NCBI GenBank assembly: GCA_904419945.1 | Contig: CAJFTM010000001.1 | Coordinates: 151,443 to 215,442, forward strand | Direction: 5' to 3' | Length of the DNA stretch: 64,000 nucleotides | Origin: an uncultured Clostridia bacterium | GTDB taxonomy: Bacteria; Bacillota; Clostridia; Christensenellales; Borkfalkiaceae | In this document: one piece after another, positions 4,773 to 22,754 of the stretch | How the letters are laid out: each line of letters opens with the position of its first letter | Numbering within the stretch: position 1 is the first letter of the stretch | Made by a program: the position numbers and the translations under genes | Notes under the pieces: model-generated | The model's input: only the letters and a program-made list of their open reading frames with translations | What the model was told of the DNA's origin: nothing | Database searches by the model: none

Positions 4773-5621
4773 ATGCTCTCTTTGGACGAATATAAAAAAA
4801 TAATCGATTTACGTTATAAACCCCGCCCTGCGGTGCATCTGAGCGAAGAGGAGAAGAGCGCCATCTGCGATGAAATGCTCGGCGTTCTTTTAGAGGAGCG
4901 CAATGAGATCGCTGCTTTCAGCTATCCATATACGATCAAGCGCGATCTTATTTGGGGATACCTAAATGAGCGTATGCCGAATCCCGTAACGCCGCGCTTT
5001 TTAGAGATCCAAGATAAGTTATTCCGGGCGGAGAGTATTGAGCGCGGCATTGTGAACGTTTCGGCGCTTGACTATAGGGAACGCATCGCTCTTTGGCAGG
5101 GAGATATTACCCGTTTGGATGCGGATGCGATCGTCAACGCGGCAAACAGTTCGCTGCTCGGCTGCTTTATCCCGCATCACAAATGTATCGATAATGTCAT
5201 TCATTCCCGCGCGGGCGTTCAGGTGCGCTTGGATTGTTCAAAAATCATGGGGGCACAGGGGGAGCCGGAACCTTCCGGATGCGCCAAGATCACGCTCGCC
5301 TATAATCTTCCATCTAAATATATCCTGCATACGGTTGGGCCGATGGTGGGGGTGCGCGTGACGGATGAGGATCGCCGAGTACTGCGCAACAGCTATCTTT
5401 CCTGCCTCAACTTGGCTCGTGAGATGGGGTTGCATACTGTAGCATTCTGTTGCATCTCGACGGGCATCTTCGGTTTTCCCGGTGACGAGGCGGCGGCGAT
5501 CGCTGTCGGTGCGGTCAAGGGATGGCTGCTCGAGGCGGGCAGCTATGATATGCGCGTTGTCTTTGATGTGTATTTGGATAAAGATTTTGCTATTTATCGC
5601 GACGTATTGCAAAATACCTGA
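4773..5621 (+). CDS. Zinc-dependent macrodomain protein (protein-ADP-ribose hydrolase)
   Basis: 282-residue protein with an N-terminal helical extension (residues 1-100) and a macrodomain (~101-282). Macrodomain marks: GDITRLDADAIVNAANSSL, and the glycine loop STGIFGFPGDEAA. The Zn-macro subgroup signature is present: C131, H135/H136 and C138 in GCFIPHHKC, the ligands that hold a catalytic zinc in the SauMacro/SpyMacro enzymes, which remove ADP-ribose from proteins. In staphylococci and streptococci these sit beside a SirTM sirtuin and lipoate genes; no such partner is next to this copy. The start is ATG at 4773 behind AGGAGG; the frame is open further upstream but without a ribosome site. 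Family call is strong, target unknown. Confidence 0.88.
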   Translation: MLSLDEYKKIIDLRYKPRPAVHLSEEEKSAICDEMLGVLLEERNEIAAFSYPYTIKRDLIWGYLNERMPNPVTPRFLEIQDKLFRAESIERGIVNVSALDYRERIALWQGDITRLDADAIVNAANSSLLGCFIPHHKCIDNVIHSRAGVQVRLDCSKIMGAQGEPEPSGCAKITLAYNLPSKYILHTVGPMVGVRVTDEDRRVLRNSYLSCLNLAREMGLHTVAFCCISTGIFGFPGDEAAAIAVGAVKGWLLEAGSYDMRVVFDVYLDKDFAIYRDVLQNT

Positions 5622-5934: not shown

Positions 5935-5963
5935 TTGCATTTTGCAAGAGAAGACGTTATAAT
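5935..5963 (+). promoter_or_regulatory. Promoter of the TM1266-ABC transporter operon
   Basis: TTGCAT (5935-5940), 17-base spacer, perfect TATAAT (5958-5963). Transcription would start near 5970, giving a leader of about 118 bases before the first gene. Confidence 0.85.
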
Positions 5964-5969
5964 CTATTG

Positions 5970-6087
5970 TACTGGAATCGAATAAGCCTGAATCAAAGGG
6001 TTCGCCCGACGGTAAAGGATCGCAGATAGTCGTATTATGATTATGCGGCCAAGCCTCCTTTTGCCGAACGGGCAAAGGAGGTTTTTT
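5970..6087 (+). promoter_or_regulatory. Structured 5' leader with attenuator (riboswitch candidate)
   Basis: The leader of the TM1266-type gene contains local hairpins (GAATC/GGTTC at 5989-6002; CGTAT/ATGCG near 6031-6047) and ends in a strong terminator hairpin (6051-6087). The 3' arm of that hairpin contains AAAGGAGG, the only Shine-Dalgarno for the gene, and its U-run touches the ATG. Termination and translation would therefore be controlled by the same fold. I do not recognise the consensus of TPP, c-di-GMP, THF, SAM, fluoride, preQ1 or ZTP riboswitches. The HMP-PP riboswitch class, known to be embedded in a terminator, is an alternative I could not test. Confidence 0.6.
6051..6087 (+). 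terminator. Leader terminator that sequesters the Shine-Dalgarno
   Basis: GCCTCCTTT(T)GCC pairs with GGCAAAGGAGG across a GAACG loop (11 GC-rich pairs, one bulged T, extended by A/U pairs), followed by six T residues directly in front of the ATG at 6088. Confidence 0.85.
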
Positions 6088-6336
6088 ATGTCGGAAAACA
6101 GGGTGGCTGTCGTCAGTTTGATCGTCGAAGATACGGAGCATGTGGATCGGCTGAATGCGGTGCTGCACGAATATGGCGGATATATCATCGGGCGTATGGG
6201 TATCCCATATCATGCAAAGAATATTTCGGTGCTGTCCGTCGTTATGGATGCTCCGCAGGAAGCGATCAATGCGCTTACCGGTAAGCTGGGTATGATCGGC
6301 GGCGTTTCGGCTAAGACGCTCTTTTCTAAATTTTGA
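6088..6336 (+). CDS. TM1266-family regulator (iron-only hydrogenase system, ACT-like)
   Basis: 82-residue protein of the TM1266/'iron-only hydrogenase system putative regulator' family, small ferredoxin-fold (ACT/NikR-C-like) proteins usually encoded beside [FeFe]-hydrogenase maturation genes. The family's central block is clear: HEYGGYIIGRMGIPY, then ISVLSVVMDAP and GGVSAKT near the C-terminus. It lacks a DNA-binding domain, so it may act as a small-molecule sensor bound to other proteins. Here it is the first gene of an operon with an ABC importer instead of hydE/F/G. Its ribosome binding site lies inside a terminator stem. Family call strong, role inferred. Confidence 0.85.
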   Translation: MSENRVAVVSLIVEDTEHVDRLNAVLHEYGGYIIGRMGIPYHAKNISVLSVVMDAPQEAINALTGKLGMIGGVSAKTLFSKF

Positions 6337-6369: not shown

Positions 6370-7440
6370 ATGAAAAAATTTTTGTCAGTGGCGCTCTCCG
6401 CGCTTATCCTCGCCTTCGGCACAGTGTTTTTTGCGGCATGCAACATAGATCCGGATGATCCGAACGATCAGCATGGAGATAATCCCGGAGGAACGGAGGA
6501 GCCCGTCGTCGCCGATATCTATGCGCCTGATGGCGCGCCCGCGTTGGCTCTTGCGCAGCTGATGAGCGAAGAGATGCAGTTCGGCGGCGATGTCACTTAC
6601 AACGTCGTAGACGCATCGACCATCCAGACCTTTGTCACCGGCAGAGAGCCGCAGGCGGAGCTGGCGATCCTGCCCGTCAACCTCGCGGCAAAGCTGCTCG
6701 GAACGGGGGAGACTTATCAGATGCTCGGCACCGTCACGCACGGAAACCTGTATATCCTCGCAAAGACGGGCGATACGCAGATCACGCAAGCCAACATCAA
6801 GGAGATGTTCGAGGGCAAAAAGGTCGGTTGCCTGCAGTTGAACAACTTTGTCGGCTATATCCTGCGCACTGTCCTCAACAATGCGGGCGTCAAGTTTGAG
6901 GTCAGGCAGGACAAGGAGGAATCGAACGGGACGATGGACACCGCTTATTTGTACGACGTGACTGGTACCGAGATCACGCCCGCCGCCGATTATGACCTGA
7001 TGATCGCCGCGGAGCCGGCTGTCCATAAAAAGACGACCGCCACCTCTTTGAAGGTCGTTGGCGACCTGCAGGCGCTGTACGGGGAGAATGGATACCCGCA
7101 GGCAGTCCTCGTAGCAAAGAAGACGCTTATCGAGGAGTCGCCTGACTTTATCGGTAATTTCGTCAAAGCGGTGGATGCGAACGCGGAATGGATCAAGACG
7201 GCGGACGCTCAGACGATCTATGACGCCGTGCAGGAAAACTACGGAGCGACGCCTACTTTTGCGGTGACCGATCTTACGGCGGAAGTCATCGCGCGCTGCG
7301 CTATCCGCTTTGAGGCGTCGGTGGAGTGTGCGCAGAGCGTCAAGACCATCCTCGCTGAACTTTCTGAGGCTGCAGACCAGACCTTTACAGTAACGGATGC
7401 CTTCTTCTACGGATTGGAGGAGGACCTGACGCAATCGTGA
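6370..7440 (+). CDS. ABC transporter substrate-binding lipoprotein (NMT1/SsuA-like)
   Basis: 356-residue extracytoplasmic solute-binding protein. It begins with a lipoprotein signal peptide (MKKFLSVALSALILAFG) and a lipobox ending FFAAC at C24, followed by an Asp/Gly/Asn-rich linker, then a two-lobe binding domain opening with IYAPDGAPALALAQLM. That start and the later AAEPAVHKK segment match the NMT1/ThiY/SsuA type of binding protein (nitrate, sulfonate, taurine or thiamine-precursor importers). The ligand is not readable. The stop codon overlaps the permease start by 4 bases, and TM1266 precedes it by 33 bases, so the genes form one transcription unit. Confidence 0.85.
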   Translation: MKKFLSVALSALILAFGTVFFAACNIDPDDPNDQHGDNPGGTEEPVVADIYAPDGAPALALAQLMSEEMQFGGDVTYNVVDASTIQTFVTGREPQAELAILPVNLAAKLLGTGETYQMLGTVTHGNLYILAKTGDTQITQANIKEMFEGKKVGCLQLNNFVGYILRTVLNNAGVKFEVRQDKEESNGTMDTAYLYDVTGTEITPAADYDLMIAAEPAVHKKTTATSLKVVGDLQALYGENGYPQAVLVAKKTLIEESPDFIGNFVKAVDANAEWIKTADAQTIYDAVQENYGATPTFAVTDLTAEVIARCAIRFEASVECAQSVKTILAELSEAADQTFTVTDAFFYGLEEDLTQS

Positions 7441-8228
7441 AGATGCGCGCGTTCTTTGCAAGCAAACAATTTAATTATATCTTTTCTGTGCTCGCGATCC
7501 TCGCGATGTGGGCAGTATGGCTGATTGCCTACGCCGTCGTCGGCAATGATTATATCGTGCCTTCCTTTGCGGATACGATGCGCAGGCTGGGAGAGCTCCT
7601 CACCGAGAGCTTTTTTTGGCGTTCTTTTGGGATGACACTCGCGCGCGCCGTCGAGGGGTGGCTGCTGGCGTTCGGCTGCGCCGTCGTCGGCATCGCATTG
7701 GGGGCGCTGAGTGAAAAGTTCCGTTTCTTTCTCGGGCCTTTTGTCGCGGTGTTGCGCGTGATCCCTACCCTCGCGGTCACCCTCATGCTGCTCCTTTGGT
7801 CGTCCGCGAACACCGTCCCCGTCATCGTCACTTTCATGATGCTCTTCCCCGTCTCCTATGCGCAGCTCGGTGCGGCGTATCGCGCCGTGGATGTGCAGTT
7901 GCTGGAGATGGCGGATGTGTACGGCCTTTCCCGCACGGATCGCATCTTCCGCATCGCCGTCCCGCAGATGCTGCCCGCGCTCTTTTCGCAGGCGGGGCCT
8001 AACCTCTCTCTCGCGATCAAGGTGGCGGTTTCCGCGGAGGTTTTGGCAAGGACATATATTTCGATGGGTGGGATCCTGGCCGATGCGAACGGTACCCTCG
8101 AGATCGCGCGCATGTTTGCCGTCACCCTCGTCCTGCTCATCTCGGGTGGACTGATCGAATTTGCCCTCGGTCATCTCACGCGCATCACAGACCGCTGGAC
8201 ACATGGGCGCGGCAAGGAGGGGGTATGA
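7437..8228 (+). CDS. ABC transporter permease (nitrate/sulfonate/taurine type)
   Basis: 263-residue integral membrane permease of the BPD_transp_1 fold, with about six hydrophobic segments. The permease coupling loop that docks on the ATPase can be placed around residues 155-185 (LEMADVYGLSRTDRIFRIAVPQMLPALF; EAA-type motif with the conserved G). Translation probably starts at GTG 7437, overlapping the end of the binding protein; an ATG at 7443 is the alternative. The end overlaps the ATPase start, giving a tightly coupled SBP-permease-ATPase set. Confidence 0.87.
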   Translation: MKMRAFFASKQFNYIFSVLAILAMWAVWLIAYAVVGNDYIVPSFADTMRRLGELLTESFFWRSFGMTLARAVEGWLLAFGCAVVGIALGALSEKFRFFLGPFVAVLRVIPTLAVTLMLLLWSSANTVPVIVTFMMLFPVSYAQLGAAYRAVDVQLLEMADVYGLSRTDRIFRIAVPQMLPALFSQAGPNLSLAIKVAVSAEVLARTYISMGGILADANGTLEIARMFAVTLVLLISGGLIEFALGHLTRITDRWTHGRGKEGV

Positions 8229-8902
8229 TCGAACTTCGCAACATTACGCAAAAATATGGCTCCCTCGCTGTGTACAGCGATTTTTCTCTCTCTTTGGAGG
8301 AGGAAAAAATCACCTGTATCCTCGGTGCAAGTGGCTGCGGCAAGACGACGCTCTTGAATATGCTCGCGGGGCTGCTGCCTTTTTCGGGAACGATCGAACC
8401 GATACAGCCGTGCTCCTATATTTTCCAGCAGCCGCGCCTTGTTCCGAACCTTACTGTGTCCGGCAATCTGCGCTTAGTCTGCAGGGATGCCGCGCGCGTT
8501 GCGGATATGCTGGCTCGCGTTGGCCTCAAGGATAAGGCGAATGCCTATCCGGTCGAACTTTCTGGCGGGCAGGCGCAGCGCGTCTCTGTTGCACGCGCGT
8601 TTTTGCATCCATCCAAACTGCTGCTGATGGATGAACCGTTTTCCTCACTCGACACGGCTTTGAAGATCCGCCTGATGAGTCTGTTCGGGGATATTTGGCG
8701 GGAAGAACGCCGTACTGTTCTGTTTGTGACACACGATGTGGAAGAGGCATATATGCTTGCGCACCGCGCGATCGTGTTGCGCGGCGGTAAAATCGCGGCA
8801 GATATCGATTGTGGGGACGGGCCGTTTCCGCGCCCGTATGGACAGGGGGCGGCTGTAAAAGATTCCCTTCTCGCGGCGCTTTTTGCAGACCGAGAGGAAT
8901 AA
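8225..8902 (+). CDS. ABC transporter ATP-binding protein (SsuB/TauB type)
   Basis: 225-residue ATPase. Walker A GASGCGKTT (~35-43), Q-loop IFQQPRLVPN, signature LSGGQAQRVSVARA, Walker B LLLMDEPF and the switch histidine in VTHDVEEA are all intact, so it should power the adjacent importer. It is shorter than most SsuB/TauB proteins (~250 aa). Start ATG at 8225 overlaps the permease stop. The operon closes with a strong terminator at 8942. Confidence 0.9.
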   Translation: MIELRNITQKYGSLAVYSDFSLSLEEEKITCILGASGCGKTTLLNMLAGLLPFSGTIEPIQPCSYIFQQPRLVPNLTVSGNLRLVCRDAARVADMLARVGLKDKANAYPVELSGGQAQRVSVARAFLHPSKLLLMDEPFSSLDTALKIRLMSLFGDIWREERRTVLFVTHDVEEAYMLAHRAIVLRGGKIAADIDCGDGPFPRPYGQGAAVKDSLLAALFADREE

Positions 8903-11210: not shown

Positions 11211-11293
11211 ACAACGGCTCCTTTTGCCGCAGTATGTGTTGGGGAGGAAAAAATATACAAGACAGGTTGCGGCATGGCCGCAGGGAGGAGCGT

Positions 11294-11791
11294 ATGGCTA
11301 AAGTAGCGATCTTAATGGGCAGTAAGTCAGATTTTGCGGTCGTCAAGCCCGCCGTTGTGACATTGCAAAAATTCGGCATCGAGACGCAGGTGCGGGTCAT
11401 CTCCGCACACCGTACGCCGGATGCAGCGCATGCGTTTGCGGCGAATGCAGAGGCGGACGGCGTTGAAGCGATCATCTGCGCTGCGGGTAAGGCAGCGCAC
11501 TTGGGCGGCGTGATCGCCGCCTATACGGCGTTACCCGTTATCGGGCTTCCCGTGAAGACAGATATGATGGGCGGTTTGGACAGCCTGCTCTCCATCGTGC
11601 AAATGCCTTCCGGTATCCCGGTCGCAACTGTCGGGGTAAACGGGGGTGAAAATGCGGGCCTTTTGGCAGCGCAGATCCTTGCGCTCCGTTATCCGGAAAT
11701 CGGCGAAAAATTAAAGGCATTCAAAAAACAGATGGCGGATAAAATTTCCGCCGACGACGCGGCGTTGCAGGAAGAACTGCGCGCACTTTGA
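11294..11791 (+). CDS. purE: N5-carboxyaminoimidazole ribonucleotide mutase (class I PurE)
   Basis: 165-residue PurE that isomerises N5-CAIR to CAIR. Family marks: ILMGSKSDFAV at the N-terminus, SAHRTPD with the catalytic histidine, AGKAAHLGGVIAA and GLPVKTDMMGGLDSLLSIVQMP. Class I PurE needs PurK, which is not in this window. ATG at 11294 follows GGGAGGAG; the longer frame upstream has no ribosome site. First gene of the purine cluster. Confidence 0.96.
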   Translation: MAKVAILMGSKSDFAVVKPAVVTLQKFGIETQVRVISAHRTPDAAHAFAANAEADGVEAIICAAGKAAHLGGVIAAYTALPVIGLPVKTDMMGGLDSLLSIVQMPSGIPVATVGVNGGENAGLLAAQILALRYPEIGEKLKAFKKQMADKISADDAALQEELRAL

Positions 11792-11821
11792 AAAAGTTAT
11801 CAATTTCGGAGGAATACATCC

Positions 11822-12529
11822 ATGAAAAAACTCGGTCAGCTTTATGAAGGCAAGGCAAAAAAAGTCTTTGAGACGGACGATCCGGACATCGTGATCGTCG
11901 ATTATAAGGACGATGCGACGGCTTTCAACGGTCTGAAAAAGGGCACGATCGCCGGAAAGGGCGTCATCAATAACAAGATGAGCAACATGATGTTCCGCCT
12001 GATGGAGCAGCACGGTATTCCGACGCACTACGTCGAAGAGCTTTCCGATCGCGAAACGGCAGTGAAAAAGGTGCAGATCGTTCCGCTGGAAGTCATCATT
12101 CGCAATACGGCTGCGGGTAGCTTTTCAAAGCGTTACGGCGTACCGGAAGGTAAAAAGCTTCCCGTCGCCGTGCTTGAATTCAGCTATAAAAACGATGACC
12201 TCGGCGATCCGCTGATCAACGATTATCACGCCCTAGCCATGGAGCTGGCGACCCCTGAAGAGATCGAGACCATCAAGAAGATGGCGTTCAAGGTCAATGA
12301 GATCATGAAGGAGTTCTTCAAGACGCTCAACATCGACCTCATTGATTTTAAGCTGGAATTCGGCCGCTTCAAGGGCAGCATTATCCTCGCGGATGAAATT
12401 TCTCCCGATACGTGCCGTTTTTGGGATATGACGACGGGCGAAAAGCTGGATAAAGATCGTTTCCGCCGCGATATGGGCGGTGTGGAAGACGCCTATAAGG
12501 AAGTGTTTGCGCGCCTCACCTCTAAGTGA
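11822..12529 (+). CDS. purC: SAICAR synthetase
   Basis: 235-residue ATP-dependent ligase that joins aspartate to CAIR. Characteristic motifs: [11 protein letters not shown] near the N-terminus (ATP grip), [13 protein letters not shown], and LIDFKLEFG in the C-terminal half. Length is normal. It follows purE by 30 bases and has GGAGG before ATG 11822. The next enzyme in the route, PurB, is not in the window. Confidence 0.97.
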
Positions 12530-12544
12530 GCGGAGGACTCATCC

Positions 12545-13969
12545 ATGTATTTGCGAGACGGTAAACTTCCGTTTGACGGTATGCATGAGGAATGCGGCGT
12601 ATTCGGCGTCTACAGCACCGAAACGCGCGACGTCGCGCATACCGCTTATTACGGGTTATACGCTCTGCAACACCGAGGGCAGGAGAGCTGCGGCATCGCA
12701 GTGGCTTATGCCAATCAAATACAGTATCATAAGGGGATGGGGCTTGTGCCCGAGGTGTTCGCGAACGGAAACCTCGAGTCCCTTCCGGAAGGGGATATAG
12801 CGATCGGCCATGTCCGATATTCTACGACGGGGGCGAGTTCGCTGCTCAATGCTCAGCCCGTTGTGTTTACGGGCAAATGCGGCAAGATGGCGCTCGCCCA
12901 CAACGGCAATCTGACCAATGCTCGTCAGTTGCGCGAGGAGCTGATCCGCGGCAATGCCGTTTTTCAAACAAGCATCGACTCGGAAGTCATGGCGCTTCTC
13001 ATCAACCGCTGCAGCGACGGCGATATCGTCAAGGGGGTCCTGGAAGCGTGCAACCGTTTCTGTGGTTCCTTTGCACTCGTCGTTATGACGACGGATAAGT
13101 TGATTGCCGTACGCGATCCGTACGGGATCCGCCCGCTCGTGTTGGGGAAGAGTTTAGACGATACCATCGTTGCGAGCGAATCGTGCGCGATCGACGCGAT
13201 GGGGGCAACGTTTGTGCGTGACATCAAACCGGGCGAAGTTGTCGTCATCGATTCGACCGGTGAAAAGTCCTATTTCCTTGAACGGAAGGATCGCACGGCC
13301 GCGTGTATCTTTGAGTATGTCTATTTTGCTAGGCCGGACAGCATCATCGATGGCTGCGGAGTATACGAAGCGCGCAAGGAGGCGGGACGGATCCTGGCTC
13401 GTACCTGTAAGATCGACGCGGACATCGTCAGCGGTGTACCGGATTCCGCGGTCGTTGCGGCGCGCGGGTATTCGGAGGTATCCGGCATTCCGTATGTGGA
13501 GGCTTTGGAAAAGAACCGATACGTCGGGCGCACCTTCATTCAGCCGGATCAGCATATGCGCGAGAGCAGCGTCAGCCTTAAGATGAATGCTTTGCGAGCC
13601 AACGTGCATGACAAGCGGATCATTATTATCGATGACTCCATTGTCCGCGGGACGACCAGCCGGCGCATCGTGCGCATGCTGCGTGCGGCCGGCGCAAAAG
13701 AGGTGCACATGATGGTCTGTTCGCCCGTGGTGCAGAATCCCTGCTATCTCGGTATCGATATGCAGACGCGCTCGCAGCTTATCGGGGCAGGCCGTTCGGT
13801 TCAGGAGATCTGCGATTATATCGAAGCAGATTCCCTCCATTACCTTACAGTCGATCAGCTAAAAGAGACGTGCGGCAATTGTAAACTGAACTTTTGCACC
13901 GGTTGCTTTGACGGCGATTATCCTTATTCGCTGGAAGGTTACCGGGAAGATAAATACAAACTGGAGTGA
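12545..13969 (+). CDS. purF: Amidophosphoribosyltransferase (Fe-S type PurF)
   Basis: 474-residue first committed enzyme of purine synthesis, glutamine + PRPP to phosphoribosylamine. A 16-residue propeptide must be removed to expose the N-terminal nucleophile C17 (in EECGVFG). The PRPP-binding motif IIIIDDSIVRGTT lies at ~359-371. Cysteines at about 254, 400, 451 and 454 (CIFEY; PCYLG; CTGC) match the four ligands of the oxygen-sensitive [4Fe-4S] cluster of the Bacillus-type enzyme, in keeping with an anaerobe. Confidence 0.97.
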   Translation: MYLRDGKLPFDGMHEECGVFGVYSTETRDVAHTAYYGLYALQHRGQESCGIAVAYANQIQYHKGMGLVPEVFANGNLESLPEGDIAIGHVRYSTTGASSLLNAQPVVFTGKCGKMALAHNGNLTNARQLREELIRGNAVFQTSIDSEVMALLINRCSDGDIVKGVLEACNRFCGSFALVVMTTDKLIAVRDPYGIRPLVLGKSLDDTIVASESCAIDAMGATFVRDIKPGEVVVIDSTGEKSYFLERKDRTAACIFEYVYFARPDSIIDGCGVYEARKEAGRILARTCKIDADIVSGVPDSAVVAARGYSEVSGIPYVEALEKNRYVGRTFIQPDQHMRESSVSLKMNALRANVHDKRIIIIDDSIVRGTTSRRIVRMLRAAGAKEVHMMVCSPVVQNPCYLGIDMQTRSQLIGAGRSVQEICDYIEADSLHYLTVDQLKETCGNCKLNFCTGCFDGDYPYSLEGYREDKYKLE

Positions 13970-13998
13970 CTTCTGTCATTTCAACGGAGAAAGAACCA

Positions 13999-15027
13999 AT
14001 GGCTATTTCCTATCAAGACAGCGGTGTCGACGTCGAGCGCGGCTATAAAGCGGTCGAGTTGATGAAAAAACATGTGCAGAGCACGTTTAATGCGAATGTG
14101 CTGGGCGATATCGGCTCCTTCGGCGGCTTTTATTCGATCGCCGGGGAAAGGATGGCTGAGCCGGTGCTCGTTGCGGGGACAGACGGCGTCGGGACAAAAT
14201 TAAAGTATGCTTTTCTTGCAAATAAGCATGATACGATCGGCATCGATGCGGTCGCTATGTGCGTGAACGACATCGTTTGCCAGGGCGCAAAACCACTCTT
14301 CTTCCTCGACTATTTTGCGACGGGCAAGCTTTCGCCCGAAGTGGTCGCGACTGTCGTGTCCGGTGTTGCGGAGGGGTGCCGTCAGGCCGGTTGCGCCCTG
14401 ATCGGCGGGGAGACGGCGGAGATGCCCGGATTTTATGCGGACGGCGAATATGATATTGCCGGTTTTGCCGTGGGCATTGTCGATAAGAAAAAAATCATCA
14501 ACGGAAACTCGATCCGTCCCGGCGATTCGCTCGTCGGTATTGCGTCCAGCGGGATCCATTCCAACGGCTATTCGTTGGTGCGCCGTTTGTTCGGCGACAG
14601 CGGCAACTCGCACGATCTCGACCGCTATGACGACCGATTAAAGGATAAAGTCCTCAACGTGCTTTTGACTCCGACAAAGATCTATGTGCGCAGTATTTTG
14701 TCGCTCATCGAAAAGGTAAGTGTCAAGGGCATCGCGCATATTACGGGCGGAGGCTTTATTGAAAATATCCCGCGCATTTTTCCGAAAGGGATCGGGTGTG
14801 AGATCCGCAAAGATTCCTATCCTTTGCCGGAGATCTTCCGCATCATGCAGGAAAAGTCTGAACTGAACGACGAGCAGATCTACAATACCTTTAATATGGG
14901 TGTTGGCATGGTCGTCTGTGTAGATAAAAAGGATGTTGCCGAGACGATCGCCGCTCTTGAATCTACGGGTGAATGCGCCTATGAGATCGGCGAAACGGTA
15001 CAGGGCAAAGGAGTCACGATCCTGTGA
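13999..15027 (+). CDS. purM: AIR synthetase
   Basis: 342-residue phosphoribosylformylglycinamidine cyclo-ligase. Family marks are GTDGVGTKL, CVNDIVCQGAKPLFFLDY, GGETAEMPG and HITGGGFIENIPR. The frame is open from 13966, overlapping the purF stop, but ATG 13999 (MAISYQDSGVD) matches the family N-terminus and has GGAGA upstream. The stop overlaps the purN start by 4 bases. Confidence 0.96.
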   Translation: MAISYQDSGVDVERGYKAVELMKKHVQSTFNANVLGDIGSFGGFYSIAGERMAEPVLVAGTDGVGTKLKYAFLANKHDTIGIDAVAMCVNDIVCQGAKPLFFLDYFATGKLSPEVVATVVSGVAEGCRQAGCALIGGETAEMPGFYADGEYDIAGFAVGIVDKKKIINGNSIRPGDSLVGIASSGIHSNGYSLVRRLFGDSGNSHDLDRYDDRLKDKVLNVLLTPTKIYVRSILSLIEKVSVKGIAHITGGGFIENIPRIFPKGIGCEIRKDSYPLPEIFRIMQEKSELNDEQIYNTFNMGVGMVVCVDKKDVAETIAALESTGECAYEIGETVQGKGVTIL

Positions 15028-15641
15028 AAAAGATAGCGGTATTTGCGAGCGGCTCCGGAAGCGACTTTCAATCTGTGATCGATGCGAATGAGAAGGATCC
15101 TTTCTGTGAGATCGGGCTTCTCGTTGCGTCGAAGGAAGGGATCTATGCGTTAGAACGCGCTCAGCAACATGGTATCCCGGCAATTGTCTGTCGCGCGCGC
15201 GATTTTGCTTCTGCCGAGGCATTCGGAGAAGAATTGATTTCGCAACTGCATGCCCGCGGCATCGATTATGTCGTGCTGGCGGGTTATCTGTCTATGCTGC
15301 CGGAAAATCTGATCCGGGCTTTCCCGGACCGCATCGTCAATATCCACCCGTCCCTGATTCCGAGCTTTTGCGGAAAAGGTTTTTATGGAATCAATGTACA
15401 TCGCGCGGCGATCGAGTACGGCGTCAAAGTGTCCGGACTGACGGTACACTTTGTCGATGAGCATTATGACAACGGCGCCATCATCTTACAGCGCACCGTA
15501 CCTGTTTTGAGCGAGGATACCCCTGAATCTTTGCAGGCTCGCATTCTTGAAGAGGAGCATAAGGCACTTCCTGAGGCGGTACGGCTACTCGCGACGGGTA
15601 GATTGCAGAAAGTCGGACGCAAGGTCACAATTCTGAGCTAA
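15024..15641 (+). CDS. purN: GAR transformylase (formyl-THF dependent)
   Basis: 205-residue enzyme formylating GAR with 10-formyl-tetrahydrofolate. Catalytic Asn-His-Asp set visible in VNIHPSLIPSF and VDEHYDNGAII; N-terminal FASGSGSDFQSVI is the phosphate loop. Start is GTG at 15024 overlapping the purM stop (GTGA), which implies translational coupling. Choice of PurN rather than PurT fits a folate-based, anaerobic route. Confidence 0.96.
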   Translation: MKKIAVFASGSGSDFQSVIDANEKDPFCEIGLLVASKEGIYALERAQQHGIPAIVCRARDFASAEAFGEELISQLHARGIDYVVLAGYLSMLPENLIRAFPDRIVNIHPSLIPSFCGKGFYGINVHRAAIEYGVKVSGLTVHFVDEHYDNGAIILQRTVPVLSEDTPESLQARILEEEHKALPEAVRLLATGRLQKVGRKVTILS

Positions 15642-15690
15642 TACAGCGACCGCTTGCTGCGGCAAAAAAATACGATCGGGGGTCAAACCA

Positions 15691-16410
15691 ATGAATGTCT
15701 ATACCATTTCCGATATCGGAGAACTCATTCGCGATAACAGCTACGTCGGCCGCGGCATCGTGATCGGAAAGAGCGAGGACGGAAAAAAGGCTGTCTTTGC
15801 CTATTTTATCATGGGGCGGAGCGAAAACAGCCGCAATCGCATTTTCAGTGAAGAGGGCGAAACCGTCACGATCTATCCCTTCGATGCGAGCAAGGTGGAG
15901 GATCCGTCTCTCATTATATATTCGCCGGTTCGACGCGTCGGCAATGATATCGTCGTCACGAACGGGGATCAGACGGATACGATCTGTGAATTTTTGCAAA
16001 AGGGGAAGAGCTTTGAACAGGCGCTCGAAACGCGCTGCTTTGAACCGGATGCCCCCAACTTTACACCGCGTATCAGCGGGATCCTGCAGTTTGCGGCGGA
16101 TAACTTTACTTATAAATTGAGCATCCTCAAGAGTGCGGATGCAGCAGGCTCTGCCTGCAATCGCTATACATTTGCATATACGCCGTTGAACGGTGTCGGG
16201 CATTTTATTCACACGTATAATTGTGACGGCAACCCGATTCCGACCTTTACGGGGGAACCTGAGCGTGTCCGCATCCCGAATAATTTGCATGAGTTCGCGC
16301 AGACGCTGTGGAGTAATCTGAACGAAGACAACAAAATTTCGCTGTATGTGCGCTATATTGACCTTGCATCCGGCGCGAGCGAAAACGTCTTGATAAATAA
16401 AAATAAGTAA
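15691..16410 (+). CDS. purO: IMP cyclohydrolase, archaeal PurO-like
   Basis: 239-residue protein of the IMP_cyclohyd (PurO) family, closing the ring of FAICAR to IMP. Signs are YVGRGIVIG near residue 20, the Arg-rich GRSENSRNRI motif, and the alpha-beta-beta-alpha fold layout with NGDQTDT. The common bacterial route uses the N-terminal domain of PurH instead; that domain is absent from the next gene, so this protein supplies the activity. ATG 15691 lies 49 bases after purN with only a modest ribosome site (GGGG). Confidence 0.87.
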   Translation: MNVYTISDIGELIRDNSYVGRGIVIGKSEDGKKAVFAYFIMGRSENSRNRIFSEEGETVTIYPFDASKVEDPSLIIYSPVRRVGNDIVVTNGDQTDTICEFLQKGKSFEQALETRCFEPDAPNFTPRISGILQFAADNFTYKLSILKSADAAGSACNRYTFAYTPLNGVGHFIHTYNCDGNPIPTFTGEPERVRIPNNLHEFAQTLWSNLNEDNKISLYVRYIDLASGASENVLINKNK

Positions 16411-16423
16411 GGAGAAGGAGAGA

Positions 16424-17608
16424 ATGAAAGAATTTCAGCTCAAATACGGCTGCAACCCTAATCAAAAGCCGTCTCGTATTTTTATGTCGAACGGCGCTGA
16501 TTTGCCGATCGAGATCCTGAACGGGCGTCCTGGCTATATTAATTTCCTGGATGCGTTCAACAGCTGGCAGCTCGTAAAGGAGCTGAAGGAGAGCACGGGC
16601 ATGGTCTGTGCGACCTCTTTCAAACATGTCAGCCCGACTTCTGCGGCTGTCGGCAAAAAACTGTCCGACCGGTTGAAAAAAGCATGTTTTGTGGATGACA
16701 TCGAAGGGCTGGACGATTCTCCGCTCGCCTGTGCTTATGCGCGGGCTCGCGGCACAGACCGCATGTCTTCTTTCGGTGACTGGATTGCTCTCTCCGATGA
16801 ATGCGATGAGGTGACGGCGAACATCATCAAGCGTGAAGTTTCTGACGGCATTATTGCGCCGGGTTATACGGCCAAAGCTCTCGAGATCCTGAAAGGAAAG
16901 AAAAAGGGGGCATATAACATCGTCAAGATCGATAAAGATTATCGGCCGGATCCGATCGAGCACAAGCAGGTATTCGGGATCACGTTCGAACAGGGGCGCA
17001 ATGAATTTAAGATCGATGCGGATCTCCTGCGGAACATCGTTACTAAAAATAAAGATCTTCCCGATGAGGCGAAAACTGATTTGATCATTTCCCTCATCAC
17101 CTTGAAATATACGCAGTCGAATTCTGTCTGCTTTGCGGCAGACGGTCAGGCGATCGGTGTCGGGGCCGGGCAGCAGTCTCGCATCCATTGCACCCGTCTT
17201 GCGGGTAATAAGGCGGATCTGTGGCATCTTCGTCAAAGTGATAAGGTGTTAGGTTTGCAGTTCGCTGAAAATGTTGGCCGTCCCGATAAAAATAATATCA
17301 TCGATATCTATTTGTCTGACGAATGTGAAGATGTCCTCGGCGACTCCGTTTGGCAGCAATATTTTGCTGTTCGCCCGGAACCTTTTACGAAAGAGGAGCA
17401 GCGCGCCTATTTGTCCAAGATCAGCGGTGTTTCTTTGGGCAGTGATGCATTCTTTCCCTTCTCAGACAATATTGAGCGTGCCCGCAAGAGCGGCGTGAGT
17501 TATATCGCGCAGCCGGGCGGTTCTGTGCGGGACGACCTCGTCATCGAGGCTTGTGACAAATACGGCATGGTGATGGCTTTTACAGGAATGCGCCTGTTTC
17601 ATCATTGA
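16424..17608 (+). CDS. Stand-alone AICAR transformylase (PurH C-domain only)
   Basis: 394-residue phosphoribosylaminoimidazolecarboxamide formyltransferase without the IMP-cyclohydrolase domain of bifunctional PurH (~510 aa). Marks: LKYGCNPNQKPS at the N-terminus, SFKHVSPTSAAVG in place of the PurH KHANPCG motif, the SNSVCFA and GQQSRIHCTRLA segments, and a final AFTGMRLFHH. The catalytic Lys-His pair (K, H in FKHVSP) is kept. It follows purO by 13 bases; together the two proteins perform the last two steps to IMP. A terminator follows. Confidence 0.9.
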   Translation: MKEFQLKYGCNPNQKPSRIFMSNGADLPIEILNGRPGYINFLDAFNSWQLVKELKESTGMVCATSFKHVSPTSAAVGKKLSDRLKKACFVDDIEGLDDSPLACAYARARGTDRMSSFGDWIALSDECDEVTANIIKREVSDGIIAPGYTAKALEILKGKKKGAYNIVKIDKDYRPDPIEHKQVFGITFEQGRNEFKIDADLLRNIVTKNKDLPDEAKTDLIISLITLKYTQSNSVCFAADGQAIGVGAGQQSRIHCTRLAGNKADLWHLRQSDKVLGLQFAENVGRPDKNNIIDIYLSDECEDVLGDSVWQQYFAVRPEPFTKEEQRAYLSKISGVSLGSDAFFPFSDNIERARKSGVSYIAQPGGSVRDDLVIEACDKYGMVMAFTGMRLFHH

Positions 17609-17613
17609 TAAAA

Positions 17614-17657
17614 AAGCTCGAGAGAGCGCCGTTTAATAGGGCGCTCTCGCTTTTTTC
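17614..17657 (+). terminator. Terminator inside the purine cluster, before purD
   Basis: GAGAGCGCC-GTTTAATA-GGGCGCTCTC stem followed by GCTTTTTTCTT. It separates purE-to-AICARFT from purD-purL. Confidence 0.85.
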
Positions 17658-17717
17658 TTAAATATGCACAATACTCTATCAGACATAATATAGGTTTTAA
17701 TACGGAGGAAAGCAGTT

Positions 17718-19013
17718 TTGCAGCTGAACGTTTTGGTGATCGGTAACGGTGGCCGCGAGCATGCCATCGCAGCGGCTCTTGCCAAGAGCCCGTTGGTCGG
17801 TAAATTGTATTGCATGAAAGGGAATGCAGGCATCGCAGAGCTCGCAGAGTGCGTCGATGTCGACTATTGCGATTTGCAAGCGGTCGGCGATTGGTTGGAT
17901 GCGCATCCCGATGTCGGATATACGGTTATTGCACCGGACGATCCGCTTGCGCTGGGACTTGCAGACGAGTTGGAAAGGCGCGGGCATAAGGTCTTTGGCC
18001 CGAATAAGCGGGCTGCGCAGATCGAATCGAGCAAAGCGTTTGCAAAGGAATTGATGAAGAAATATGGCATTCCGACGGCGGCGTATGAAACGTTTGACGA
18101 TTACGGCGCCGCGCTCGCTTACATCGAAAAAGGAAAGTTCCCCGTGGTGCTGAAAGCAGACGGCTTGGCTCTCGGCAAGGGTGTGCTGATCTGTGAGACG
18201 CTCGAGGAGGCGCGGGACGGATTGCGCCGTATCATGTTGGATAAAGCGTTCGGTGCGGCGGGAAATAAAGTTGTCGTTGAAGAATATCTGAGGGGTAAAG
18301 AATTTACCCCGGGTGAAGAGGTCTCCGTTCTTACTTTTACAGATGGCAAGACCATCGTTCCGATGATTGCGAGCTGTGATCATAAGCGCGTCTTTGACGG
18401 CGACAAGGGGCCGAATACGGGCGGAATGGGGACATTTACGCCTTGCCCGTTTTATGACGATGCCGTTGCGGAGGAAGTGAGGGAGAAGATCTTGCTGCCC
18501 ACTGTCCGCGCGATGAACGCCGAAGGGCGTCCGTTTAAGGGTGTGCTCTATTTCGGGCTCATGCGCACGCCGGACGGCATGAAAGTAGTCGAATACAATG
18601 CGCGTTTCGGTGATCCGGAAACGCAGGTCGTCCTGCCCATGCTCAAGACCGACTTGATGGAGATCTTCCTTGCCGTGACAGAAGAGCGCCTCGCGGATAT
18701 CAAGATTGAATGGGAGGACGGAGCATGTGTTTGCGTCGTCCTCGCGAGCGGCGGCTATCCGCAGCATTATGAAAAGGGAAAGCCGATTGAGATCGGCGAT
18801 CTCGACGAAGGCGTATTCCTTTATCATGCGGGGACCAAGCGCGAAGGCGGCGTTCTCAAAACGAGCGGCGGCCGTGTCATCGGCGTCTGCGCCAAAGGAG
18901 CTACTGTTGCGGAGGCGCGCGAAAAGGCATATCGCAACGTGGAAAAGGTCCATTTTGAAGGGATGCAATATCGCAAGGATATCGGTATTAAATATGTTCA
19001 TGAGGAGCACTGA
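17718..19013 (+). CDS. purD: Glycinamide ribonucleotide synthetase
   Basis: 431-residue ATP-grasp ligase forming GAR. Family marks: VLVIGNGGREHAIA at the very start, FPVVLKADGLALGKGV, GTGGMGTFTPCPFYD-like sequence (NTGGMGTFTP) and EYNARFGDPETQ. Start is TTG at 17718 behind CGGAGGAAAG; no ATG lies upstream in frame with a ribosome site, and the N-terminus aligns with PurD proteins. No clear promoter was found between the preceding terminator and this gene, so read-through or a weak promoter must drive it. Confidence 0.95.
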   Translation: MQLNVLVIGNGGREHAIAAALAKSPLVGKLYCMKGNAGIAELAECVDVDYCDLQAVGDWLDAHPDVGYTVIAPDDPLALGLADELERRGHKVFGPNKRAAQIESSKAFAKELMKKYGIPTAAYETFDDYGAALAYIEKGKFPVVLKADGLALGKGVLICETLEEARDGLRRIMLDKAFGAAGNKVVVEEYLRGKEFTPGEEVSVLTFTDGKTIVPMIASCDHKRVFDGDKGPNTGGMGTFTPCPFYDDAVAEEVREKILLPTVRAMNAEGRPFKGVLYFGLMRTPDGMKVVEYNARFGDPETQVVLPMLKTDLMEIFLAVTEERLADIKIEWEDGACVCVVLASGGYPQHYEKGKPIEIGDLDEGVFLYHAGTKREGGVLKTSGGRVIGVCAKGATVAEAREKAYRNVEKVHFEGMQYRKDIGIKYVHEEH

Positions 19014-19052
19014 GGAGTGCAGGATCGCAAAATAACCGGGAGAAGAGAGAGC

Positions 19053-22000
19053 ATGATCTACAGAGTTTTTGTTGAAAAGAAGGAAAATTTGCAGGCTAAA
19101 AAGATTCGGGACGATCTCGCGGCTCAGCTCGGGATCATCGTAGAAGATCTGCGCGAAATCATCCGCTATGATGCGGAGGGGCTTACGGCGGAGGAATTGG
19201 AAGGGGCGATCATCAATGTTTTTTCCGAGCCGCCCGTCGATCATGTGTGGAGAGAAGAACTGCCCGTCAGTGCGGATTATAAAGTTTTTGCCATCGCTTT
19301 TTTGGATGGCCAGTATGATCAGCGGGCGGACAGTGCCGCACAGTGTATCCAGCTTCTGACACAAAAGACCCGCCCGCTCATCAAGTGCGCCCGCATCATT
19401 GCGGTCAAAGGGGTGACGGATGCACAGTTAGAGCGTATCAAAAGGCACCTCATCAATCCGGTCGAGAGCTCTGAGGTCTCTCTCGAAAAGCCTAAAACGC
19501 TCGTTCGCGCCAAGATGGAGACGCATGATGTTGCCAATGTGGATGGCTTCATTCGCATGAGTGAGGAGGAAATCGCTGCATACCACCGCAAAAACGGCTT
19601 TGCAATGAGCGTGGAAGATCTCATCTTTGTGCGCGATTATTTTAAGGACGAGGGACGCGATCCGACGGAGACGGAGATCAAAGTGATCGATACGTATTGG
19701 TCGGATCATTGCCGTCATACGACCTTTGCGACGGAGATCCGTGATGTAGATATTCATTCGGATAATCCGCATATTGCAAAAGCATACCGACTGTATCGCG
19801 AATTGTTCAATGAATTTAATGCGCAGCGGGCGGATAAATATCCTTGCTTAATGGATATTGCGACGATCGCCGTCAAAAAATTGAAAAAGGAAGGGCGCTT
19901 AGACAATCTCGATATCTCCGATGAGATCAACGCTTGTTCCATCTGTATCGATGCGGAGATCGACGGTAAGGTCGAAAAATATCTCGTGATGTTCAAGAAC
20001 GAGACGCATAATCACCCGACAGAGATCGAACCGTTTGGCGGCGCGGCGACATGCCTTGGCGGGGCTATCCGCGACCCTTTGTCCGGCCGTACGTATGTCT
20101 ATCAGGCAATGCGCATCACCGGTTCGGCGGATCCCCGTGAAAAAATCGAGGATACATTGCCCGGGAAGCTTCCGCAGCGCGTCATCACAAAGACGGCTGC
20201 TGCAGGCTTCTCTTCCTACGGCAATCAGATCGGGCTGGCGACGGGCATCGTCGATGAGGTCTATCATCCCGGCTATAAGGCAAAGCGTTTGGAGACGGGG
20301 TTCGTCGTGGGCGGCGCTCGCCGCGATATGGTCTATCGCGAAAAGCCGGGGAAAGGAGATGTCATTATCTTGCTCGGCGGAGAGACAGGGCGTGATGGCT
20401 GCGGCGGGGCGACCGGTTCTTCTAAGGCACACGACGCACATTCCGTGGAGACATGCGGAGCAGAAGTGCAGAAAGGGAATCCGTTGACGGAGCGCAAACT
20501 GCAGCGCCTGTTCCTGCAGCGCGAGGCGACGCGCATGATCAAAAAGTGCAACGATTTCGGGGCCGGCGGTGTTTCCGTTGCCATCGGTGAATTAGCTGAC
20601 GGCTTGGTAATCGATCTCGATAAAGTTCCTCTCAAATACGAGGGGTTGTCCGGTACGGAACTGGCTATTTCCGAGTCACAGGAGCGTATGGCTGTGGTGG
20701 TGGATGCAAAGGATTGTGACGCATTCATTGCCCTGGCTGCGCAGGAAAATCTCGCGGCGACACCTGTTGCCGTCGTCACGGACGACCGCCGGATGAAAAT
20801 GCTGTTTAAAGGACGCGAGATCGTCAATATTTCCCGCGATTTCTTGGATACAAACGGCGTCAAACAAGTCGTCACGGCAGAGATCGATGACAGTGTGCCG
20901 CATTATTTTGATGTAGCGGAGCAGAGTTTCCGCAGCGGTCTTATCCAATCTTTAGCAGATCTGAATGTCTGCTCTAAGAAAGGCTTGTCTGAGATGTTCG
21001 ATTCGACCATCGGGGCCCGTACAGTCTTTATGCCCTTTGGCGGCAAGACGCAGTTGACTCCTGCGATTGCCATGGCCGCGAAGATCTGCGGCGGCGAAAC
21101 GGATGTTGCGACCGTATCCGCCTATGGTTATTGCTCGAAGTTGATGAGCGAAAGCCCTTTTACGGGGGCAATTTACAGTATCGTCACATCGGTCGCAAAG
21201 CTGATCGCTGCGGGCTGTGATTTCGATGCGATTCGCCTTACATTCCAGGAATATTTCATGCGCCTGAATCGTGATCCGAAACGTTGGGGCGTGCCTCTGT
21301 CTGCTTTGCTCGGTGCGCTGTATGCGCAGATCGGTCTCGGCTTAGGGGCGATAGGCGGTAAGGATAGCATGAGCGGTACTTTTGAACAGATCGACGTTCC
21401 GCCCACACTCATTTCTTTTGCTCTTGCCCCCGCTAAGGCGAGCAAATTGATCACCAATGTGATCGGTGCTGCCGGCTTGAAATTATATCGCCTGCCGATG
21501 CCCCGCGACGAGAGTATGATCCCCGATTTTGCGGCGCTTTCCGATTTGTATCGCAAAGTATACAGCAATGTACAGAGCGGCAACATCCGTTTTGCCACAG
21601 TTGTTGAAAACGGCGGCATTGCCGCGGCAATTGCAAAATCCTGCCTTGGCAACGGTTTCGGTTTTCATTTTGCTAGGGATGCGTCTGAGCTTCTCGGTGA
21701 GCAGTACGGGGAACTGATTGTTTCGCTCGACGAAGTTTCGGCTCTCGATTGCGAAAAGGTTTATCTCGGCGAAACGACGGCGGACGGCAATTTTGTATGC
21801 GGGGATGAATCCGTTTCACAAGGGGAAGCGACGGAGGCATTTTGCGGTACGTTGGAAAAAGTTTTTCCCAATACGGCTGATGCGGATGGCTGTGCAAAGT
21901 CGGTCGACTTTGATTGCAGAGGCAAACGGTACGAGAATATTTCGACGAAAACGGCAAAGCCGCGCGTATTTATTCCTGTATTCCCCGGAACGAATTGCGA

Positions 22001-22754
22001 GCTGGATACGGCGCGTATGTTCCGGCTTGCCGGTGCAGAGTGTGAAGAAGTCGTCGTGCGCAATCGCAGTGCGGCGGATATCGAGGATAGCGTCCGTGCA
22101 ATCTCTGCGGCGATCGCACGCAGCAATATCATTGCCTTTCCGGGGGGATTCTCCGGCGGTGATGAACCGGATGGGAGCGGGAAATTTATTGCGACGACAT
22201 TCCGCAATCCTTATATTGCCGAACAGATCCAGCGATTGCTCGAACAGCGCGACGGCTTGATCCTCGGCATTTGCAACGGATTCCAGGCTCTGATCAAACT
22301 CGGGCTCGTGCCGTATGGGGAAATTCGTCCTCTCACGACAGAGAGTCCGACGTTGACTTACAATACCATTTCCCGCCATGTTTCGACGCTCGTCGATATC
22401 CGCGTGGCTTCGAATCGATCTCCCTGGCTCTCCGCGTGCCGTGTCGGCGACGTATACACCGTTCCCGTTTCACATGGGGAGGGGCGTATCGTAGCTCCTG
22501 CTTCAGCTCTCGAACAGATGGCGGCAAACGGTCAGATCGCGACGCAGTATTGCGATGCGTCCGGTCAGCCGACGATGAAGTATCCGTTCAATCCAAATGG
22601 TTCTTTATGGGCGATCGAAGGGATCACCTCGCCGGATGGCAGAGTGTATGGCAAAATGGGGCATACGGAACGTGCAGGAAACGATCTGTATAAAAACTGT
22701 TCTGGCAATTTTGATATGAAATTGTTTGAGAGCGGTGTTCGCTATTTCCGCTGA
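19053..22754 (+). CDS. purL: FGAM synthase, large fused PurL (PurS-L-Q)
   Basis: 1233-residue single-chain formylglycinamidine ribonucleotide synthase. Regions in order: N-terminal PurS-like region (~1-150), linker and PurM-like synthetase halves (residues ~200-950; SDHCRHTTF, FKNETHNHPTEIEPFGGAATCLGG, NDFGAGGVS), and a C-terminal class I glutamine amidotransferase (~980-1230) with the catalytic cysteine in LGICNGFQ and the histidine in SHGEGR. Many Firmicutes use three separate proteins PurS, PurL and PurQ; this organism has the fused form. I took ATG 19053 (MIYRVFVEKK) with GGGAGAAGAGAG upstream rather than the frame extension to 19017. Confidence 0.95.
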   Translation: MIYRVFVEKKENLQAKKIRDDLAAQLGIIVEDLREIIRYDAEGLTAEELEGAIINVFSEPPVDHVWREELPVSADYKVFAIAFLDGQYDQRADSAAQCIQLLTQKTRPLIKCARIIAVKGVTDAQLERIKRHLINPVESSEVSLEKPKTLVRAKMETHDVANVDGFIRMSEEEIAAYHRKNGFAMSVEDLIFVRDYFKDEGRDPTETEIKVIDTYWSDHCRHTTFATEIRDVDIHSDNPHIAKAYRLYRELFNEFNAQRADKYPCLMDIATIAVKKLKKEGRLDNLDISDEINACSICIDAEIDGKVEKYLVMFKNETHNHPTEIEPFGGAATCLGGAIRDPLSGRTYVYQAMRITGSADPREKIEDTLPGKLPQRVITKTAAAGFSSYGNQIGLATGIVDEVYHPGYKAKRLETGFVVGGARRDMVYREKPGKGDVIILLGGETGRDGCGGATGSSKAHDAHSVETCGAEVQKGNPLTERKLQRLFLQREATRMIKKCNDFGAGGVSVAIGELADGLVIDLDKVPLKYEGLSGTELAISESQERMAVVVDAKDCDAFIALAAQENLAATPVAVVTDDRRMKMLFKGREIVNISRDFLDTNGVKQVVTAEIDDSVPHYFDVAEQSFRSGLIQSLADLNVCSKKGLSEMFDSTIGARTVFMPFGGKTQLTPAIAMAAKICGGETDVATVSAYGYCSKLMSESPFTGAIYSIVTSVAKLIAAGCDFDAIRLTFQEYFMRLNRDPKRWGVPLSALLGALYAQIGLGLGAIGGKDSMSGTFEQIDVPPTLISFALAPAKASKLITNVIGAAGLKLYRLPMPRDESMIPDFAALSDLYRKVYSNVQSGNIRFATVVENGGIAAAIAKSCLGNGFGFHFARDASELLGEQYGELIVSLDEVSALDCEKVYLGETTADGNFVCGDESVSQGEATEAFCGTLEKVFPNTADADGCAKSVDFDCRGKRYENISTKTAKPRVFIPVFPGTNCELDTARMFRLAGAECEEVVVRNRSAADIEDSVRAISAAIARSNIIAFPGGFSGGDEPDGSGKFIATTFRNPYIAEQIQRLLEQRDGLILGICNGFQALIKLGLVPYGEIRPLTTESPTLTYNTISRHVSTLVDIRVASNRSPWLSACRVGDVYTVPVSHGEGRIVAPASALEQMAANGQIATQYCDASGQPTMKYPFNPNGSLWAIEGITSPDGRVYGKMGHTERAGNDLYKNCSGNFDMKLFESGVRYFR

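Follow-up and report, generated by a model that had tools for sequence, protein, structure and literature searches.

The operon that opens with a TM1266 family gene in the 64,000-nucleotide stretch of clostridial DNA analysed here (the window) is preceded by a leader that comparison with related genomes confirms as a genuine, evolutionarily conserved element and not a chance fold. We hold with high confidence that it is a regulated attenuator with its own sensor hairpin, a 32-nucleotide structure upstream of the terminator. Hairpin conservation, covariation, an alternative pairing and gene association were all read by comparison; together with the fold of the TM1266 protein they allow a broader proposal, which we make tentatively, that TM1266 may be a sensor that binds RNA and has a regulatory domain like that of NikR and that, with a widespread leader hairpin not listed so far, it may control [FeFe]-hydrogenase maturation and metal or cofactor importers by attenuation, in some lineages through a fused terminator and Shine-Dalgarno trap.

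Features of the leader and operon (window coordinates)
Feature	Positions	Strand	Basis or remark
Sigma-70-type promoter TTGCAT-N17-TATAAT	5935-5963	+	Read from sequence; TTGCAT 5935-5940, TATAAT 5958-5963
Conserved sensor hairpin, 32 nt	5987-6018	+	R1/R2 models, covariation
Sensor hairpin helices	P1 5987-5989/6016-6018 (CCU/AGG); P2 5992-5995/6010-6013; P3 5998-6000/6005-6007	+	
Antiterminator strand (sensor hairpin 3′ half)	6006-6020	+	Can pair with terminator 5′ arm, ~6056-6070
Variable linker hairpin between sensor and terminator	6019-6051	+	Predicted fold; sequence and length differ among relatives
Intrinsic terminator: stem-loop CCTCCTTTTGCCGAACGGGCAAAGGAGG (6054-6081), U-run TTTTTT (6082-6087)	6054-6087	+	
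Shine-Dalgarno AAAGGAGG	6074-6081	+	Entirely within terminator 3′ arm; spacing 6 to ATG 6088
TM1266 family gene, 82 aa	6088-6336	+	TIGR03959, 110.1 bits (curated cut-off 60.8); PF21699, 106 bits
NMT1-like substrate-binding lipoprotein (SBP)	6370-7440	+	PF09084, 20.2 bits, slightly below the 20.5 cut-off
ABC transporter permease	7437-8228	+	PF00528
ABC transporter ATPase	8225-8902	+	PF00005

The initial annotation of this DNA had described a clear promoter and a terminator stem whose 3′ arm holds the only Shine-Dalgarno sequence of the TM1266 gene, with the U-run abutting the ATG, and these readings hold. By inspection a TTGCNT...TATAAT-like pair is retained in the genus leaders, and transcription is predicted to start at ~5970; the leader is ~118 nt long and ends in the terminator, the last U of which is followed directly by the start codon. 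The bases of AAAGGAGG, the sole Shine-Dalgarno sequence of the gene, have ensemble pairing probabilities of 0.98-1.00, and the terminator by itself folds at -17.8 kcal/mol. The fold of 5964-6110 has a z-score of -2.44 (2 of 200 shuffles are equally good), and terminator-like patterns are frequent (9 seen in 5 kb against 5.5 expected). Fold energy on its own is modest evidence, and the leader is judged real because of its comparative conservation. The operon looks regulated, as had been claimed, and the terminator is indeed the Shine-Dalgarno trap of the annotation, but the view that one hairpin does everything does not stand: conservation centres on a second hairpin, farther upstream.

Seventeen genus leaders can be aligned over their full length, and in these the upstream hairpin, the terminator, the U-run and the spacing to the start codon are all kept. 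The strongest block of the alignment, A-CCUGA-NNNN-RA-RGS-loop-SCY-GA-NNNN-AA-AGG-GGAGA, lies upstream of the terminator and is not the terminator itself. A covariance model, R1, finds exactly one copy each in 36 of the 40 genus genomes and gives the window element 54.1 bits (E 3e-13, the window copy being part of the R1 training set). At the window locus the model match, a downstream terminator and a TM1266/SBP operon occur together, the combination that defines the type-A element. A DNA pattern search across 84,980 genomes returned 54 loci, nearly all from Clostridia or Firmicutes records, and the downstream operon was of the SBP or TM1266 kind at 23 of 24 freshly read loci. Carriers include Candidatus Borkfalkia and Pumilibacter muris, the element extends to further families and to a second order, and by script or inspection a terminator lies 3′ of it in most related leaders. 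Weak R1/R2 matches at three loci (L069, L070 and L210) resemble coding sequence and a pattern match in Electrothrix (L134) is without a related operon; all four were treated as chance. One locus (L118, genome G208) carries a second, partial copy, CGGAGGGUUCGCCCGACG, at ~5513-5530, immediately upstream of the full element.

The sensor hairpin contains two purine internal loops, GA/AA and AA/GA, and is built from two near-equal half-sites, CCUGA/AAAGG, that are near repeats of each other. In the window copy P2 contains a single A x C mismatch, and the hairpin folds alone at -9.0 kcal/mol. Across 55 distinct copies 95.6% of the pair cells are standard; the outermost P2 pair is frequently A-C and is better counted as loop-like. 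Six of the ten pairs covary, changing on both sides (45 cells); none of 500 shuffles is as good and no slid register comes close. P1 and P3 show the covariation expected of one long hairpin (CUU/AAG, AGC/GCU), which led us to reject a two-hairpin, kissing-loop alternative.

The 3′ half of the sensor hairpin, AAAGGGGAG in most relatives and AAAGGATC in the window, is complementary to the 5′ arm of the terminator. The window antiterminator duplex is worth -13.9 kcal/mol. For 57 relatives the pairing of each leader with its own partner (-13.8 kcal/mol) exceeds that with swapped partners (-13.0 kcal/mol), a result equalled in none of 200 swaps; the 5′ part of the hairpin reaches only -4.4 kcal/mol. 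Sensor and terminator together therefore exclude the antiterminator, and vice versa; from this mutual exclusion we infer that the folded sensor corresponds to termination, the OFF state.

Our best model, for which we put the chances barely above even, is an attenuation leader in which TM1266, possibly together with a ligand, targets an anti-antiterminator much as PyrR does. The sensor hairpin would fold first. When stabilised, its 3′ half would be unavailable as antiterminator, the terminator would form and transcription would stop before the ATG; any read-through RNA made in this OFF state would have its Shine-Dalgarno sequence buried. When the sensor can open, its 3′ half would pair with the terminator 5′ arm, transcription would proceed and the Shine-Dalgarno sequence would be exposed. 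The stabiliser would most likely be the TM1266 protein, probably loaded with a metal or a cofactor-related signal, and the outcome would be feedback on the operon, namely TM1266 and an importer here and hydrogenase maturation genes elsewhere.

The fusion of terminator and Shine-Dalgarno sequence varies with gene order. Where TM1266 comes first in the operon, the terminator 3′ arm in this genus usually is the Shine-Dalgarno sequence and the start codon follows the U-run directly. Where TM1266 lies elsewhere in the genome, element and terminator immediately precede the SBP gene, which has its own ribosome-binding site 3′ of them (L100, L101, L103, L105-L107 and L109-L111; also L121, L127, L149 and others). 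Since in these genomes the element remains directly in front of an SBP-permease-ATPase operon that has an ordinary ribosome-binding site, the fused arrangement is a lineage variant and not the conserved core; on this comparison the element appears to belong to the regulation of the operon rather than to one fused hairpin. The substrate-binding proteins, whose family profile matches PDB 3hn0 at 8e-22, appear in part as natural circular permutants, with the APDGAPAL half, normally N-terminal, displaced to the middle or to the C-terminal part (L121, L137, L140, L143, L157, L160, L164 and L173; L104, L106, L108 and L110); their operon position is unchanged and their genus partly shared.

The fold of TM1266 resembles the NikR regulatory domain. 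Its structure model (pLDDT 94) has as its closest solved folds 2nzc, which is TM1266, and then the C-domain of NikR. NikR binds DNA through its RHH domain, whereas TM1266 is a NikR C-domain-like regulatory fold without a DNA-binding domain; its invariant basic residues are R5, R36 and K66. Two near-repeat half-sites in the RNA are as expected for a symmetric protein. Among the 40 genus genomes, element and TM1266 are both present in 35, both absent in 4 and the element is alone in 1 (Fisher 5e-5), the exception being a genome 81% complete (G007) in which TM1266 was not found. All 20 genomes identified by way of element loci encode TM1266, mostly unlinked to the element, against 140 of 248 in the order; in seven of those read, TM1266 lies elsewhere and no element precedes it. 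The unlinked genes at L286-L288 and L290-L292 have a conserved neighbourhood in common, with a sigma-factor-like gene upstream and an SDR-like gene downstream, without the leader element. Before SBP operons the element is found in 0 of 12 TM1266-less genomes and in 7 of 8 TM1266-bearing ones (Fisher 1e-4), and a genome 97% complete that is without TM1266 (G194) keeps promoter and SBP operon while the element is absent and the leader gone. These patterns tilt us, somewhat beyond an even balance, towards TM1266 as a candidate trans factor. Part of the co-occurrence is due to shared ancestry, which can mimic much of the evidence for a trans factor; within the genus the SBP is lost along with element and TM1266, and the SBP operons of TM1266-less genomes may be paralogous.

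HydG scores above its family cut-off in none of 27 genus genomes tested, and the name 'hydrogenase regulator' may be misleading given that TM1266 is kept without it. With hydG missing from the genus, the signal in the window lineage may be the compound that the operon imports.

Beyond the genus the element takes related forms, and we consider it very likely, a little less firmly than attenuation itself, that TM1266 leaders share one element family. By inspection, a shorter version, (C)CUG-AUC-GA-UGA..UCG-GA-GAGUAAG, precedes TM1266 in further families of the order and L218 is intermediate; the TM1266 leaders of hydE-hydG operons, likewise by inspection, read CCUGA-..-AA-..-GA-..-AAAGG. Outside the order the element was identified by a written descriptor together with weak model scores. 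In a model built on a mixed MAFFT alignment (R3), P2, which is 3 or 4 bp long, was misaligned and no base pairs were obtained; for this reason a written descriptor of the structure was applied, with antisense strands and shuffles as controls. In its strict form this descriptor matches 17 of 60 TM1266 leaders sampled across the phylum in sense and none in antisense, with 0.05-0.15 matches per shuffled set, and was not found in the other 43; it was composed after some phylum leaders had been viewed, and the controls weigh more than the raw count. Model R2, trained only on type-A elements of the order, gives 26 matches at E up to 1 in phylum leaders, 24 of them sense (p 5e-6). For the hydE/hydG leaders of the order the descriptor is unreliable (strict, 1 sense and 0 antisense; relaxed, 7 and 3), so these assignments rest on inspection.

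Related sensor hairpins occur in front of TM1266 and of genes for hydrogenase assembly or nutrient import in numerous gut and anaerobic bacteria. Genes confirmed by profile downstream of TM1266 are hydG, hydE, hydF, aspA and a FecCD permease, plus, with a borderline score, an ECF-like S component; the presence of aspA in hyd operons was already known (PMC11736057). At L036 the genes of a FecCD-type importer of metal complexes follow in the same element-bearing TM1266 operon, which hints at a metal or corrinoid-like signal. By inspection, five deep-branching TM1266 leaders (L318, L331, L304, L302 and L296) show two apparent tandem CCUGA..GAGGG copies before one terminator.

The annotation's statement that no known riboswitch consensus is recognisable is borne out by Rfam. 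At gathering score Rfam 15 matches nothing in the window leader, RNase P being the sole match in the window, and none of 40 operon loci gives a match; scans of the leader and of the relatives tested at more permissive thresholds assign no family either, nor was a known riboswitch found on orthologous operons, where it was sought as a clue to the ligand. The window also holds a large purine biosynthesis cluster at 11234-22754 (by their look purE, purC, purF, purM, IMP cyclohydrolase-like, purH-like, purD and purL) without an Rfam-detectable purine riboswitch. The best Rfam match of the leader, the PyrR binding site RF00515 (E 0.38), reaches 22.6 bits against a cut-off of 54, and membership is rejected. 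PyrR attenuation shares the logic of the leader, an upstream anti-antiterminator hairpin that overlaps the antiterminator and, once stabilised, allows the terminator, but differs in sequence, loops and genes. In RAT/LicT-type antitermination a small symmetric protein binds a hairpin of ~30 nt in which a short central helix is flanked by two internal loops. That layout, likened here by description only, is similar, but the polarity is opposite and the protein is a CAT domain, whereas TM1266 is ferredoxin-like. The autoregulation of rplJL by L10(L12)4 in Bacillus subtilis (PMC4538822) involves a ribosomal protein, and both its RNA and its protein are unrelated to the leader and TM1266.

The chief rival reading makes the sensor hairpin the aptamer of a novel riboswitch for a metabolite, metal or cofactor tied to the importer and to H-cluster assembly, with the same attenuation mechanics and TM1266 merely co-regulated. 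We give this perhaps one chance in a few: the hairpin is small and compact with conserved internal loops, the apparent tandem copies in several deep leaders (L318, L331 and L304 among them) would fit, and three importer types (NMT1-like ABC, FecCD and ECF) plus a cofactor pathway are typical of orphan riboswitches, yet no TM1266-less genome but G007 has a confident element, the loops are simple and two-fold and lack the more numerous invariant bases that small-molecule aptamers usually have, and no Rfam class fits. A fixed attenuator or insulator that only lowers expression, its hairpin setting the efficiency of antitermination, is an improbable reading of the leader; such a device would not need a covarying hairpin with purine loops kept over many families and lost with TM1266, even though terminator-like patterns are common and regulation is read here from sequence. 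As its nearest known concept the annotation had named the HMP-PP (thiS) riboswitch, which shares with the leader compact terminator control before metabolic genes, and a terminator beside the start codon and an NMT1-like importer speak for it. However, HMP-PP riboswitches are ON switches with the aptamer embedded in the terminator stem, found exclusively with HET-P/thiamin genes (PMC6478431), whereas the conserved hairpin here is separate (5987-6018, upstream of 6054-6081), overlaps the antiterminator and predicts OFF, and the gene contexts of the element (TM1266, NMT1-like SBP-permease-ATPase, hydE/hydG/hydF, aspA, FecCD and ECF) are not thiamin genes. The HMP-PP covariance model matches neither the window leader (E up to 10) nor 15 loci (E up to 5) nor 20 phylum leaders (E up to 3). 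We reject membership and regard this class, or a relative with a terminator-embedded aptamer, as extremely improbable.

In the open literature searched we found no paper on RNA-level control of [FeFe]-hydrogenase maturation genes or on TM1266 function, and the candidate-structured-RNA papers checked there mention neither hydrogenase nor TM1266. TM1266 has hitherto been only a 'putative hydrogenase-system regulator', and [FeFe]-hydrogenase maturation genes are common among anaerobes. The leader element adds an RNA family absent from Rfam; tracking TM1266 through hydrogenase, ammonia-lyase and importer operons, it gives the protein a testable role, and it gives the NMT1-like importer a regulatory link.
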